From: Spirochaetaceae bacterium | GTDB taxonomy: Bacteria; Spirochaetota; Spirochaetia; Treponematales; Breznakiellaceae | Direction: 5' to 3' | Length of the DNA stretch: 64,000 bases | Assembly (NCBI GenBank): GCA_031278215.1 | Contig: JAITKV010000011.1 | Coordinates: 1-64,000 of the forward strand | Shown: piece after piece, positions 5,003 through 28,019 of the stretch | Numbering within the stretch: position 1 is the first letter of the stretch | How the letters are laid out: each line of letters opens with the position of its first letter | Made by a program: the position numbers and the translations under genes | Notes under the pieces: model-generated | What the model was told of the DNA's origin: nothing | Database searches by the model: none | What the model saw: the letters and a program-made list of their open reading frames with translations, nothing else

Positions 5003-5851
5003 ATGACTCCGGTTCGCCTGCTTGCACTGGATCTGGACGATACCTTGTTGCGTTCGGATCTGTCCATCTCTTTCCGCACCCGGAACGCTATTAGAAGGGC
5101 GGAAAGCCGGGGGGTAACGGTGGTGTTAACCTCCAGCCGCGCCCCCGCGGCCATGGAGCACTTTGCCGCCCTGCTGGGGCTGAACAAAAGACCCGGCTTC
5201 CTTATCGCAAATAACGGAACCATAGTCCAGGAAACCCAAAGCGGGAACCTGATTTTTGATATAAAGATACCCCCTCAGGCGGCGCTTCTTATCTATGACA
5301 TGGCCGACGCGGAGGGCTTTGCGGTTCAAATTTACGATGACGATATTATGTACATTTCCCGGTCCAACGAATTTGCCGAATACGATCAAAAAATAACCGG
5401 CCTGCGCCAGGTGGTGGTGGAAAACTTCCGTTCCATGGTGGCCGCGGGGTGTCATAAGATGCTTATCCCCGGGGACCCCATGATCCTGGAACCCCTGGCC
5501 CGGCTTCTGGCCAACTATGCCGGCGACGTCTCTATTTACACCTCCAAGCCTTACCTGCTGGAAATCCTGCCCCCCGGTACGGACAAGGGAACCGCCCTGG
5601 CCCTGGTGGCGGAAAAGCTTTCCATCCCCCGGGAGGCGGTACTGGCGGTGGGGGATTCCATGAACGACGAGACCATGCTCCGCTGGGCGGGATATTCCGT
5701 GGCCATGGTCAACGCCGACGAGCGGCTTAAAGAAATAGCCGCGCTGGTGACAGAAAAATCCAACGACGAAGACGGCGTGGCGGACCTAATCGAACGGTAT
5801 ATCCTGGGCGGCGAAGATCTAAGCGTCAAGGGATCTGTTAATGGCCGATGA
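5003..5851 (+). CDS. HAD-superfamily Cof-type sugar/nucleotide phosphatase
   Basis: 282 residues with HAD motif I LALDLDDTLL (nucleophile Asp and acid Asp), motif II serine in VVLTSSRAP, a C2-type cap, and motif IV GDSMNDETML. Cof/YidA-type enzymes hydrolyse sugar phosphates, FMN or PLP; the substrate cannot be read from the sequence. The stop overlaps the start of the next gene by 11 bp, so it probably heads an operon with the CBS/ATPase, DRTGG and PHP genes. Confidence 0.9.
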   Translation: MTPVRLLALDLDDTLLRSDLSISFRTRNAIRRAESRGVTVVLTSSRAPAAMEHFAALLGLNKRPGFLIANNGTIVQETQSGNLIFDIKIPPQAALLIYDMADAEGFAVQIYDDDIMYISRSNEFAEYDQKITGLRQVVVENFRSMVAAGCHKMLIPGDPMILEPLARLLANYAGDVSIYTSKPYLLEILPPGTDKGTALALVAEKLSIPREAVLAVGDSMNDETMLRWAGYSVAMVNADERLKEIAALVTEKSNDEDGVADLIERYILGGEDLSVKGSVNGR

Positions 5852-6794
5852 CAAGCCGGACATTCCCATCGGTGCCGACGATTCCCCGTCGGTGGTGCTG
5901 GATCTGATTTACCAGCTTAAAATTAAGGACGTAATGACCACCGCGGTAATTACCGCGGCCAAGACCGATACCCTGCGGCACATTCAGGCCATGATGCGGG
6001 AAAACTACATTACGGGCATCCCCATCACGGAAGACAACAAGCTTTTGGGGCTTGTTTCCATTGACGACATTGTAACGGCCCTGGACAAGGGGCACATCGA
6101 CGCCGCCGCGGACGAAAAGATGACCCGGAACGTCATTGTCCTGGAAGATGACATGCCCCTTTCTTTTGCCATCGCCTACCTTAACAAATACAGTTATGGA
6201 CGGTATCCGGTGGTTAATAAACAAAAAGACCTGGTGGGGATCCTAACCAGTAAAGATGTGATCGGCACCCTTTTGGTAGAAATGAACCGGGAGGTACTGC
6301 GGCTGGAAAAAATAAGCCAGGGCCATAGCGGCACCGCGGGATTTTCGGAGATGGAATTTGCCACCACCAAATACGACTTTGAAATGGCCGGCAGGGCCTC
6401 CACGGAAATCAAAAAGGCCTTAAAAAAACACAACATCGATCCCCAGATTATCCGCCGGGCGGCCATTGCCAGCTATGAGCTGGAGATTAACCAGGTGGTT
6501 CATTCCAACGGCGGGGTCATGCGTTGTTCCATCCAGCCGGATAAGGTGATTGTGATCGCCGCCGATACGGGTCCGGGCATTGAGGATGTTACTCTGGCCC
6601 TGCAGGAAGGCTGGTCCACCGCCAACGAATGGATCCGGTCCCTGGGCTTTGGGGCCGGCATGGGGCTGGCCAATACCAAACGGGTCAGCGACGAATTTAC
6701 CATCAGCTCAAAGCTTGGCGAAGGCACCACGGTCCGTTCGGTGATCTACCTTAATTCCCCCAAGGAAGAATCGGGGATTTCCCCTTTAAAGTGA
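5841..6794 (+). CDS. Paired CBS domains fused to an RsbT/RsbW-like ATPase
   Basis: 317 residues: CBS domain 1 (~26-79, IKDVMTTAVITAAKTDTLR), CBS domain 2 (~92-145), a linker, then a GHKL ATPase domain (~175-305) with N-box ELEINQVVHSN, G1 DTGPGI and G2 GFGAGMGLANTKR. CBS pairs bind adenine nucleotides; the ATPase resembles anti-sigma/switch kinases of the RsbT type. With the next two genes it forms the CBS/ATPase-DRTGG-PHP set known from operons of multimeric [FeFe]-hydrogenases in Thermotoga and anaerobes. A role in sensing energy state and regulating redox enzymes is an inference. AAGGGATCT precedes the ATG. Confidence 0.85.
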   Translation: MADDKPDIPIGADDSPSVVLDLIYQLKIKDVMTTAVITAAKTDTLRHIQAMMRENYITGIPITEDNKLLGLVSIDDIVTALDKGHIDAAADEKMTRNVIVLEDDMPLSFAIAYLNKYSYGRYPVVNKQKDLVGILTSKDVIGTLLVEMNREVLRLEKISQGHSGTAGFSEMEFATTKYDFEMAGRASTEIKKALKKHNIDPQIIRRAAIASYELEINQVVHSNGGVMRCSIQPDKVIVIAADTGPGIEDVTLALQEGWSTANEWIRSLGFGAGMGLANTKRVSDEFTISSKLGEGTTVRSVIYLNSPKEESGISPLK

Positions 6795-6801
6795 GGAACC
6801 G

Positions 6802-7137
6802 GTGACCATACGGGAAGCCGCGGCAATGCTGGACGCGGAAATTATACAGGATAAGTTCAAAGACGCCCCCCTTACCGGGGCCTATACTTCGGACCTTCTT
6901 TCCGATGTAATGGCCAACGCCAAGGATGGGGGCGCGCTGATTACCATCCAGGCCCATAAAAATACCGTGGCGGTGGCGTCCCTGGTAAATGTTTCGCTGA
7001 TCATCCTCTGCAACAACCGGCCTGTACAGGACGACGGTATGCTGGAAGCGGCCCGGGACGAAAACATCGCGGTAATCCGGACCAGGGAAAACCAATTTAC
7101 CGTTTCGGGAAAGCTCTACGCGGCGCTAAAGGAATAG
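6802..7137 (+). CDS. DRTGG-domain protein
   Basis: 111 residues covering one DRTGG-like domain (as in the middle domain of some phosphotransacetylases and in hydrogenase-operon proteins). The sequence has the alternating hydrophobic pattern GGALITIQAHKNTVAVASL and SLIILCNNRP. Starts at GTG with GAGGA upstream, 7 bp after the CBS/ATPase gene, so it is clearly in the same operon. A ligand-sensing role is an inference; no catalytic residues are apparent. Confidence 0.75.
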   Translation: MTIREAAAMLDAEIIQDKFKDAPLTGAYTSDLLSDVMANAKDGGALITIQAHKNTVAVASLVNVSLIILCNNRPVQDDGMLEAARDENIAVIRTRENQFTVSGKLYAALKE

Positions 7138-7141
7138 GGCC

Positions 7142-7936
7142 TTGGCTCTGCTGGCGGACCTGCACAACCATTCCTGCCTTTCTCCCTGCGGTTCCCTGGA
7201 TCTGTCCCCCAGGGTCCTGGCGGAAGCCGCGGCCGCCAGGGGAGTGGCGGTGCTGGCCCTAACCGACCACAACGCCAGCCGCAATTGTCCGGCCTTTGCC
7301 TTCCACTGCCGGCGGCTGGGCATCGTTCCCTTTTTCGGCCTGGAATGTACCACCCTGGAAGAGGTTCACATGGTCTGCCTCTTTGCCGAACTGGACGCGG
7401 CCAGGGCCTTTGGGGATCACATCTATTCGCTCATCATGCCCCTCCCCAACGATCCGGAAAAAACCGGGGACCAGGTGTATGTGGATGCGCAGGACAACAT
7501 CGAAGGGGAACTGGAATATTTTCTGCCCAGCGCCGCGGATATCGGCGTTGACGCCCTGGGCCCCCGGGTCGCGGAATACGGGGGCATTATCATTCCCGCC
7601 CATGTGGACAGGCCGGCCTTTTCCATGTCAAGCCAGTTTGGGGTGGTAAGTCCCGGCCCCTGGGCGGCGGTGGAATGTACCCGCATCCCCCCCATGATAT
7701 TCCCCCCGCCGGTTATGGGTTCCTTTCGGGATTCACCCCCGGCGGTGGAACCCAAAAGGCTCGATACCCTGGGCCATCCCCTGATTACCGCCTCCGACGC
7801 CCACTGTGTCGAACACGTGGGACGCCGCCCCTTTGAGCTTGATACGGAGAGGGAAGAATTGCTTCCCCGGGGCCCCGGGGAGGACGCGGACATGGGCGCT
7901 TTGCAAAGGGCCCTGCAAAAACGGACGCGGCAGTAG
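7142..7936 (+). CDS. PHP-domain phosphoesterase
   Basis: 264 residues. Metal-binding motifs of the PHP family are visible: HNHSCLSPCG near the N-terminus, TDHNASRN, ECTTLEEVH, and a C-terminal SDAHCVEHVG. These enzymes hydrolyse phosphoesters using two or three metal ions; the substrate is unknown. It begins at TTG four bases after the DRTGG stop, with AAAGGA overlapping that gene's end. Position directly after the DRTGG gene matches the arrangement beside hydrogenase genes in other anaerobes, though no hydrogenase gene lies here. Confidence 0.85.
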   Translation: MALLADLHNHSCLSPCGSLDLSPRVLAEAAAARGVAVLALTDHNASRNCPAFAFHCRRLGIVPFFGLECTTLEEVHMVCLFAELDAARAFGDHIYSLIMPLPNDPEKTGDQVYVDAQDNIEGELEYFLPSAADIGVDALGPRVAEYGGIIIPAHVDRPAFSMSSQFGVVSPGPWAAVECTRIPPMIFPPPVMGSFRDSPPAVEPKRLDTLGHPLITASDAHCVEHVGRRPFELDTEREELLPRGPGEDADMGALQRALQKRTRQ

Positions 7937-25454: not shown

Positions 25455-25490
25455 TTTACATTATTTTTGCCGTTCGGTATACTCAAAAGA
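25455..25490 (+). promoter_or_regulatory. rpmB promoter
   Basis: TTTACA (25455-25460) and TATACT (25478-25483) are spaced by 17 bp, close to the sigma-70 consensus. The transcript would start near 25490, giving a ~25-nt leader with GAAGGAAGG before the rpmB ATG. Confidence 0.7.
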
Positions 25491-25799: not shown

Positions 25800-27065
25800 A
25801 TGGAAAACGGCATTCAAGTAATAAGCCGGTCCTTTATTCCGGTAGATGATTTTGATTCCTTTACGGTCCTGGGGGATCCGGGCTGCGACGGTCTGGGGGC
25901 CGAAATCGTGTCCACCTTTGTCCGGGGCCTGCGCCCTGCCCCGGAAGCCCCGGCGCCGGGGAGCTTCCAGCTGGTGGTGGGCGATATTGTTCCCTTTGGC
26001 TCACGGACCTTTTACCACAACATGACGGATCTGGTAAACGCCGTGGCGGACAGGCCGGTTTTTATGGTCTGCGGCAACCACGACACGGATTACTACGACG
26101 ACTATTTTGGCCGCCGGGACTATGCCCTGGGGGACCGCAGAACCCTTATTGTCGTCCTGGACAATTCTAAACGGCTTATTGCGGACCGTTCCCTGGAATT
26201 CCTGTCCTATGCCCTGGAACATCACCGGCGCCCCAATATTATCCTGGCCATGCACATTCCGCCCCCCAACGGGGTTTCGCCGAACGCGATTCCCCCGGAG
26301 GAATGGGAAAAGATCCGCTCCCGCTTCGCGCCCTGCCGGGACCGGCTAAAGTACATTATCTGCGGCCACCTGCATTCCTATTTTGAAGACTCCCTGGAGG
26401 GGGCCAGGCTTATTGTTTCCGGCGGCGCGGGGGCCCGGATCGAAGAAGAGCCGGGGATCCAGGCCCCCTATAACCATGTGGTAGATTTTTTTTACGACGC
26501 CGCGGGGGTCCTTTCCCACAGGAAAAGGGATATTCATCCGGTACAGGAACGCCATGGGGATCCCCGGATGCAAACCATGCTTTCTAACGCCTTTTCCCAG
26601 GAATGTATGGCCCATGTCCGCTACAGGCTTTACGCGGAGGATGCGGAAAAACGGGGGATGAAAAACACCGCGAAACTGTTTAGGGCCGCGGCGGACTCGG
26701 AATGGCGCCATGCAAAAAATTTTTATTATACCCTGCCGGGCCTGCAGGAACCGGTTCCGGCCATTGAAGAGGCGGCGGAAAACGAACGCCGGGAAGTTGA
26801 CGAGGTCTACAAAGAATGTCTGGACTACGCCCGGGAGCACAAGCTGGGGCTTCCCGCCTATGCCTTTACCGACGCCCTCGCGGCGGAAAAGGTTCACCTT
26901 GGGCTGTTCCGAAAAGCCCGGGGGCATCTGGAAACCCGGAAAGATATTCCGGAAGAATCGTACTTTACCTGTTCGTCCTGCGGATATACATTTGCGGGGG
27001 CCGAAGATCCCAAGAACTGTCCGGTCTGCGGGGCCCCCGCGGATAAAATTGAACCTGTTCAATAA
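25800..27065 (+). CDS. Calcineurin-like phosphoesterase fused to rubrerythrin
   Basis: 421 residues. Residues ~15-250 are a metallophosphoesterase: GDIVPFG, VCGNHDTD, AMHIPP and ICGHLHSY are present, but the first DxH motif reads GDPGCDG and lacks its His. Residues ~257-375 are a rubrerythrin diiron domain with ligands in SQECMAHVRY, SEWRHA, EVDEVY and AAEKVH. Residues ~388-418 are a rubredoxin-like [Fe(SCys)4] domain (CSSCGYTF, CPVCGAP). The rubrerythrin part should reduce hydrogen peroxide; the substrate of the phosphoesterase is unknown. The frame is continuous across the junction near 26550 with no stop or gap. No strong ribosome-binding site precedes the ATG. Confidence 0.9.
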   Translation: MENGIQVISRSFIPVDDFDSFTVLGDPGCDGLGAEIVSTFVRGLRPAPEAPAPGSFQLVVGDIVPFGSRTFYHNMTDLVNAVADRPVFMVCGNHDTDYYDDYFGRRDYALGDRRTLIVVLDNSKRLIADRSLEFLSYALEHHRRPNIILAMHIPPPNGVSPNAIPPEEWEKIRSRFAPCRDRLKYIICGHLHSYFEDSLEGARLIVSGGAGARIEEEPGIQAPYNHVVDFFYDAAGVLSHRKRDIHPVQERHGDPRMQTMLSNAFSQECMAHVRYRLYAEDAEKRGMKNTAKLFRAAADSEWRHAKNFYYTLPGLQEPVPAIEEAAENERREVDEVYKECLDYAREHKLGLPAYAFTDALAAEKVHLGLFRKARGHLETRKDIPEESYFTCSSCGYTFAGAEDPKNCPVCGAPADKIEPVQ

Positions 27066-27086: not shown

Positions 27087-27131
27087 CTCCGAAAAGTTTG
27101 AAAAACTTATTCGCAAGCGGGTTTAAGACCC
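27087..27131 (+). repeat. Short dispersed repeat C, copy C3
   Basis: GAAAAGTTTGAAAAACTTATTCG matches 8143-8165 and, in its right half (TTATTCGCAAGCGGGTTTAA), 14765-14784. It lies between two convergent genes; the thioesterase stop codon is inside it. Confidence 0.6.
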
Positions 27132-28019
27132 CGCCCGCAGTTCCGCCCGAAAAACCACGGCCCCTTCTTCAGGGCCGGTACGTCGGCCCTCCAGGGCAAA
27201 GGCCGCGGTGCAAACCCCGGGGGTGTCGGGGCTGTCCAGGCGGGGATCTTCCAGGGGCGCCATGTAGAGGCCGATGGTTTCTCCGCCCCGGGCTTCGGAA
27301 AGGTAATTGATATCCAGCCGTATCTGCGCGGCCCTTTCAAGAATTTCAATATCCAGCAGATCCTGGATCCACTGGATGTAGCGGGTGTTGTTCATGTGGC
27401 CGTTAAAATCAATGTCGGAATAGCAGACCCGGCGCATCACCGGTTCCGCGGTAAAACTGCGGGCCCCCAGGGACGGGGGCGGCTCGTTGCCGGTTCCCGC
27501 CAGGGCGTCGTGTCCTTCGTTGGAAGAAAAAGAAGCCACCGCGGCCTGGGGGCGAAGCGGCCGGCGTTTTTCCATGTCCACAATAAGCCAGGCGCTGCGG
27601 CCCCGGACCAGTGGTTTTTCCGCGCCGCCGTTTTCCGCGCCGCCGTTTTCCGCGCCGCCTCCCGCGCCGCCTCCCGCGCCGCCTTCCGCGCCGCCGCTTT
27701 CATCGCCGCCCTTTGGGGGCTCCCCGGAAAACGCCCGGATGTCGTAATCCCGGATGGCGAAAAGTTTGTTTGCCCCCCGGGGCCAGGACCGGATCCGGAT
27801 GGCCGTGTTAAACCGGGGGCGCCGCTCCATAAAAACCGAAATTCGCGAAAGAAGCCACAACTGGCCGGTTTCTTTCATCGCATCCCGGCCTACTCCCAGG
27901 ATCTCCGCATGGCTGATGGCCGCTTCTTGAAAAAAGTCAAAGGTAGAAGCCAGGGTAAGGGCGTCGCTTCGATCAATGTGGCCAAAGCGGATTAGCTGTT
28001 GTTCACTGAATATATCCAT
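27123..28019 (-). CDS. Acyl-ACP thioesterase (FatA/FatB family)
   Basis: Hydrolyses acyl-ACP to free fatty acid and ACP. 298 residues arranged as two hotdog domains: N-terminal half (FDFFQEAAISHAEILGVG; LSRISVFMERRPRF) and C-terminal half with the catalytic-type motif SDIDFNGHMNNTRYIQW. Between DYDIRAF and RGRSAWLIVD there is a ~33-residue Gly/Ala/Glu/Asn insert from tandem DNA repeats, making the protein longer than the usual ~245-250 residues. It is followed on the same strand 3' by repeat C. The ATG at 28019 has GAGGGAGAAACC-type purines upstream. Confidence 0.9.
   Translation of the reverse strand: MDIFSEQQLIRFGHIDRSDALTLASTFDFFQEAAISHAEILGVGRDAMKETGQLWLLSRISVFMERRPRFNTAIRIRSWPRGANKLFAIRDYDIRAFSGEPPKGGDESGGAEGGAGGGAGGGAENGGAENGGAEKPLVRGRSAWLIVDMEKRRPLRPQAAVASFSSNEGHDALAGTGNEPPPSLGARSFTAEPVMRRVCYSDIDFNGHMNNTRYIQWIQDLLDIEILERAAQIRLDINYLSEARGGETIGLYMAPLEDPRLDSPDTPGVCTAAFALEGRRTGPEEGAVVFRAELRAGS
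27616..27696 (-). repeat. 15-bp and 12-bp tandem repeats in the thioesterase gene
   Basis: Three 15-bp units based on TTTTCCGCGCCGCCG (27616-27660) are followed by three 12-bp units based on CCCGCGCCGCCT (27661-27696). All are multiples of three, so the frame is kept; they encode GGAEN and GGAG runs. Confidence 0.9.

Follow-up and report, generated by a model that had tools for sequence, protein, structure and literature searches.

A family of metallophosphoesterase–rubrerythrin–rubredoxin fusion proteins in spirochaetes and other bacteria

A single open reading frame in a Spirochaetaceae bacterium encodes a metallophosphoesterase (MPE), a rubrerythrin (Rbr) and a rubredoxin-like (Rdx) domain in one chain. 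The frame lies within 64,000 nucleotides of contig JAITKV010000011.1, analysed here as a whole and referred to as the window. Both parts of the fusion belong to known families; the fusion family itself is real, widespread yet patchy, and seemingly undescribed. Source databases name its members sometimes 'metallophosphoesterase' and sometimes 'rubrerythrin', so that the halves are annotated apart. Judged from the alignments, the pair conserved across the family appears to be the MPE and Rdx sites, and not the peroxidase site. For this reason we favour, tentatively and at somewhat less than an even chance, the reading that the fusion is a redox-gated phosphoesterase whose MPE centre would be served by the Rdx site.

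Architecture and reality of the fusion

The frame runs without an internal stop and has the following features (window coordinates, all on the + strand).

25800–27065, +: whole fusion gene, MPE–Rbr–Rdx, 421 amino acids (open reading frame and Pfam)
25851–26534, +: MPE domain, residues ~18–245, GpdQ/Rv0805/purple-acid-phosphatase fold
25872–25898, +: motif I, G25-DPGCDGL-G33, with no His at D+2 and Cys29 at D+3 (sequence and alignment)
25980–25985, +: motif II, GD (D62), followed by I-V-P65, the purple acid phosphatase Tyr being absent (sequence and alignment)
26073–26084, +: motif III, GNHD (residues 92–95) (sequence and alignment)
26253–26255, +: motif IV, His152 (HIPPPN) (sequence and alignment)
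26364–26375, +: motif V, GHLH (residues 189–192) (sequence and alignment)
26535–26570, +: linker, residues 246–257, the least constrained part (dN/dS)
26571–26939, +: Rbr four-helix domain, residues ~258–380, with a complete di-iron set
26961–27050, +: Rdx-like domain, residues 388–417, with 12 residues between its two CxxC motifs (Pfam PF21349)

All three domains score above the curated Pfam cut-offs: PF00149 matches residues 21–194 (38.6 bits, cut-off 21.5), PF02915 (rubrerythrin) residues 260–372 (48.7 bits, cut-off 22.8) and PF21349 (rubredoxin-like) residues 390–416 (36.6 bits, cut-off 26.5). Together with the open reading frame and the motifs, these matches bear out the uninterrupted 421-residue MPE–Rbr–Rdx frame that had been recognized in a sequence-only reading, and structure prediction gave a confident single model for the whole protein. 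The MPE domain ranks with GpdQ, Rv0805 and the iron-containing purple acid phosphatases. It carries the calcineurin-like motifs GD, GNH(D/E), H and GHxH, and its motif I reads D26-P-G-C29-D30, without the His of the classical D-x-H. The di-iron set is composed of E268, E301, H304, E329, E332, E363 and H366, and the Rdx cysteines are paired as C391/C394 and C407/C410. Against the NCBIfam equivalog RuberyRbr (NF045767) the protein scores 74.7 bits, below the curated cut-off of 200, and neither hemerythrin nor HD-GYP is among the 15 Pfam families that match it at E-values up to 1.

A whole-protein search returned 252 proteins at E ≤ 1e-3 among 7,994 candidates scored. An alignment of 111 sequences including the query (A2) was derived from the 120 matches listed of these 252, nine shorter or partial ones being dropped. 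The same domain order, for which a database search had been suggested, is present in at least 110 other full-length relatives, which align along the whole fusion protein. Compared with the relatives at L001, L002 and L003, dN/dS is 0.19–0.27 for the MPE, 0.13–0.21 for the Rbr and 0.10–0.20 for the Rdx part, all three of which are under purifying selection; two short stretches, residues 1–17 and the 12-residue linker, give 0.09–0.31 and 0.34–0.89, respectively. An assembly or sequencing error that joined two genes, or a missed frameshift, can be dismissed with near certainty, given the same fusion in the records of many lineages and dN/dS values of 0.10–0.27 on both sides of the junction.

The combination had been noted as one of no established function. 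In the openly licensed literature searched on rubrerythrin and phosphoesterase (judged mostly by title and abstract), neither a description of the fusion nor a widely known, characterized family of this kind appeared among the papers listed. A survey of rubrerythrins does not name an MPE fusion architecture in its available part (PMC5114695), and the accessible portion of PMC12016516 mentions rubrerythrin and phosphoesterase, but for separate proteins.

Conservation of the three sites

Conservation was assessed in 147 proteins of at least 370 residues, of 193 collected, with the 46 shorter ones dropped. D62, N93, H94, D95, H152, H190 and H192 are kept in all 147, a conservation that is partly by construction because relatives were also collected by an MPE-domain search. 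D26 and Cys29 are each found in 142 of the 147; of the other five, three are gapped at these positions, whereas P0168 and P0170 lack both residues. These two proteins have also lost part of the four-helix domain, with the rubredoxin cysteines kept. Among the 144 long relatives that have a residue at position 28, 143 have Gly, one has Ala and none has His; at position 30, 142 have Asp, two have Ser or Cys, and Lachnospiraceae-type forms have Glu. At position 65, the Tyr site of GDxxY, the 147 proteins have Pro (128), His (15), Ala (3) or Arg (1). Cys29 is the only near-invariant Cys of the MPE domain, followed by C91 (104/147) and C188 (90/147).

The missing motif I His, already noticed in the window copy, proves to be shared across the family (Cys29 in 142 of 144), and is a fixed subfamily trait (GDPGC) rather than a defect of that copy. 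A dead, degenerate MPE was rejected as the default reading because the whole family has the altered motif I while keeping all the other ligands. We infer that Cys29 may bind metal.

A search for stand-alone MPEs, limited to shorter proteins, gave 48 matches. Of the 30 that were read, many seem to result from contig ends or changes of frame, but P0175, P0176 and P0179 (242–244 residues) look complete and carry GDTAC, GDVGC and GDPGC, with neither Rbr nor Rdx. The motif I Cys is thus a feature of the MPE subfamily rather than one peculiar to the fusion. P0186–P0189 and P0193 are remoter MPEs.

The four Rdx cysteines are kept in all 147 long relatives. All seven di-iron ligands (EEHEEEH) are present in 109, one is changed in P0065 and at least two are missing in 37, the largest broken group sharing EAHEDKY or a close pattern; in 35 of these 37, the MPE ligands, Cys29 and the Rdx cysteines are all kept. 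Peroxide reduction is therefore not the function shared family-wide. The earlier suggestion of a link to peroxide or iron state stays plausible, but not as a peroxide reduction common to all members.

Mapped on a quick maximum-likelihood tree of the MPE columns only, the state of the di-iron set needs four changes, or three if P0168 and P0170 are not counted, on a topology with 52 of 148 inner branches weakly supported, a long-branch warning, and loss not distinguishable from gain. A second MPE tree, with six long or odd rows left out, again gives four changes. We read the changes as probable losses, since ordinary rubrerythrins have all of these ligands. In P0132, from the broken di-iron clade, the helices and the Rdx are still present in the predicted fold (pLDDT 92.6, pTM 0.85). 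P0158 (331 residues, on an 85.7-kb contig) comprises an MPE and half an Rbr and ends without an Rdx, so that the Rdx is perhaps not always needed. The Lachnospiraceae-type proteins P0158, P0160 and P0166 carry GDPGCEGLG as their motif, and in each the rubrerythrin domain is present only to about one half.

Distribution and genomic context

The fusion is common to some spirochaetes and many other bacteria, those outside Spirochaetota being identified by source names in the protein lists. Among the matches listed from the whole-protein search, the source names include Treponema, Peptococcaceae, Clostridiales, Omnitrophota, Victivallales, Lentisphaerae and Wallbacteria; the MPE-domain search added Margulisbacteria and Endomicrobiales, and the search of shorter proteins added Lachnospiraceae. 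With its own genome included in each count, the fusion was found in 5 of 58 genomes of one set, in 10 of 195 genomes of its own family (spread over 8 of 56 genera, with 2 positives among 42 high-quality genomes) and in 2 of 392 genomes sampled across the phylum (none of them among the 326 of high quality). This patchy spread fits gene transfer or frequent loss. In one of the ten family genomes (G506), the match at L047 5939–6757 covers only positions 169–420, the C-terminal part of the fusion, and this copy may be truncated or broken.

No relative of the fusion was found on viral contigs. Eight plasmid records matched, over only 36–44% of the query, which corresponds to the Rbr–Rdx half. One plasmid, from Roseburia sp. 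831b, encodes a 393-residue protein annotated 'rubrerythrin' (P0194; L031 3500–4681, − strand) near desulfoferrodoxin, rubredoxin, yaaA and bcp genes. PADLOC returned nothing for P0001 and one weak match, PDC-S10 (E-value 2.7e-4), for P0175.

In the window, the fusion starts 65 bases after the gene for ribosomal protein L28 (25516–25734, + strand, 72 residues, PF00830), and rpmB also precedes it in L001 and L002. The two genes may be transcribed together, as suggested by a promoter-like match at 25455–25483 (two such matches were found in the stretch, with 0.8 expected). Across about nine distinct contexts (window, L001, L002, L003/L043 on one contig, L009, L032/L033, L034, L044, L045/L048/L049, L046 and L047), no neighbour beyond rpmB in the first three is conserved; neighbours were read mostly by eye and some by Pfam, and the L009, L044 and L032/L033 contexts end at contig ends. 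Two-component genes lie within a few kilobases of the fusion in the window. The acyl-ACP thioesterase gene at 27123–28019 has a low-complexity Gly/Ala/Glu/Asn stretch at about 27610–27700 (− strand), between its two Pfam domains. In L003, a long frame with many SVDSDLK/SVDSGLK-type repeats (5449–7923) adjoins the fusion.

A telling context was found in one of the roughly nine, an operon of G530 (protein P0060; L045 2363–10701 and L049 1–6124). Its order is two Na/Pi cotransporters with a PhoU domain, the fusion, a PnrA-type substrate-binding protein whose gene has a 4-base overlap with the fusion, an ABC ATPase, two permeases and a 5′-nucleotidase (PF02872). The set resembles one for the salvage of nucleotides and phosphate. 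With its phosphate and nucleoside-type transporters and its 5′-nucleotidase, this one operon suggests a nucleotide substrate for the MPE. The second messenger or damaged nucleotide earlier proposed as a substrate has no direct support.

The genome carrying the window also encodes an ordinary rubrerythrin (C23), a reverse rubrerythrin (C51) and one rubredoxin (C7). With these two other rubrerythrins at hand, plain peroxide removal does not need the fusion gene, and the fusion is unlikely to be the sole peroxide defence of this organism. On C51 (L035 303–1326), a gene that looks Fur-like by eye is directly followed by the reverse-type rubrerythrin, with its rubredoxin domain first. The C-terminal domain of NADH:rubredoxin reductase (PF18267) was not found in this genome, which is 80% complete.

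Possible functions and comparison with known systems

In the redox-gated phosphoesterase that we favour, the MPE centre would bind iron at the D-x-G-C motif I site, with Cys29 or a neighbour replacing the missing His. The reduced protein would hydrolyse a small phosphoester, likely a nucleotide; peroxide or O2 would oxidize the module and stop hydrolysis, which rubredoxin-borne electrons would restore. Where the di-iron site is present, as in the window protein, peroxide would also be removed next to the enzyme. The broader proposal seems somewhat unlikely: that these proteins form a new, electron-fed class of phosphoesterases, in which rubredoxin electrons would keep a Cys-associated MPE iron centre active, hydrolysis (likely of a nucleotide) would be redox-gated, and the Rbr peroxidase would be an optional guard discarded by several lineages. 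For a Cys ligand to Fe3+ in a protein of the purple-acid-phosphatase fold, there is a precedent in PhoD (PMC4223295). A precedent for ferrous-state dependence is Bhr-HD-GYP, which, in the part of the report available, hydrolyses c-di-GMP only in the ferrous state and is inactive in the ferric state (PMC9388753).

Several points count against redox gating. The Cys-ligated Fe3+ ion of PhoD is, in the accessible text, called redox-inactive by its authors (PMC4223295), and a Cys ligand alone is thus no argument for redox control. The case for Cys29 as a residue tied to the redox module in particular is weakened as well: P0175, P0176 and P0179 keep GDxxC without Rbr or Rdx, so that this Cys is not specific to redox coupling. 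P0168 and P0170 keep the Rdx without MPE D26 and C29, and the Rdx may be a structural knob that binds zinc. The nucleotide substrate, for its part, is indicated by one of about nine distinct contexts.

For members that keep the di-iron site, such as the window protein, a strong rival is that Rbr–Rdx acts as a tethered peroxidase, protecting an iron-dependent phosphoesterase from peroxide without any switching. The complete di-iron set of the window protein and 109 of the 147 relatives argues for this, as does the resemblance of the Rbr part to P. furiosus rubrerythrin, an enzyme credited with hydrogen peroxide reductase activity in the available part of PMC5114695. At least three changes on the MPE tree leave lineages without the di-iron set but with Rdx and MPE, a pattern not expected from protection alone, and as an explanation of the fusion we consider such protection unlikely.

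Similarly doubtful is a mainly structural role, in which the ferritin-like and Rdx parts (four Cys binding Fe or Zn) would serve oligomerization of an ordinary phosphoesterase. The helical bundle is predicted to persist without the ligands in the P0132 model, stand-alone MPE sisters exist, and P. furiosus rubrerythrin is a 16-mer according to the title of structure entry 9qg1; a pure scaffold, however, would not conserve di-iron ligands, and these are intact in 109 of 147. It is quite improbable that, as a strong form of the earlier suggestion would have it, the di-iron site senses peroxide and the MPE responds by destroying a second messenger or damaged nucleotide. The resemblance in fold to the cyclic-nucleotide phosphodiesterase Rv0805, the Bhr-HD-GYP precedent and the two-component genes of the window, though no neighbour is conserved, would fit a sensor, but a quarter of the relatives (37/147) lack at least two ligands of the sensor site, and the sole telling context (G530) is one of nucleotide and phosphate uptake.

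If the redox-gated reading is true, the fusion represents a second design, unrelated to hemerythrin–HD-GYP, for non-haem iron redox control of phosphoester hydrolysis, and rubredoxin gains a regulatory partner other than an oxidoreductase. The proposed coupling is directly testable by ordinary biochemistry, thanks to the family members in which the di-iron site is naturally broken.

Among known phosphoesterases, GpdQ and Rv0805 have D-x-H in motif I. The fusion differs from this glycerophosphodiesterase and this class III cyclic-nucleotide phosphodiesterase in having D-x-G-C (D26-P-G28-C29) at that site, and the latter two have neither Rbr nor Rdx. The purple acid phosphatase set, as given in the accessible part of PMC5591292, comprises D-x-G in motif I and GDxxY in motif II; the window protein shares the D-x-G (D26-P27-G28) but not the GDxxY Tyr, an Fe3+ ligand. 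Unlike purple acid phosphatases and PhoD, it has no signal peptide by eye and is fused to Rbr–Rdx.

Over 169 residues, the Rbr–Rdx part is 38% identical to the P. furiosus-type ('classical group B') rubrerythrin, with which it shares the complete di-iron set and the short-spaced rubredoxin domain; the placement in group B was made by similarity and not from a rubrerythrin tree. The fusion adds an N-terminal MPE, and 37 of 147 relatives lack at least two of the di-iron ligands. P0194, a flavin reductase–rubredoxin–rubrerythrin (the flavin-reductase reading being by eye), is likewise a rubrerythrin with an extra N-terminal enzyme domain, but that domain resembles an electron donor rather than a phosphoesterase. 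The closest functional analogue may be Bhr-HD-GYP of Ferrovum, in which a non-haem iron module is joined to an iron phosphodiesterase active only when reduced, as is proposed for the fusion; the folds (hemerythrin and HD-GYP) are unrelated to those of the fusion, and Bhr-HD-GYP has no rubredoxin.
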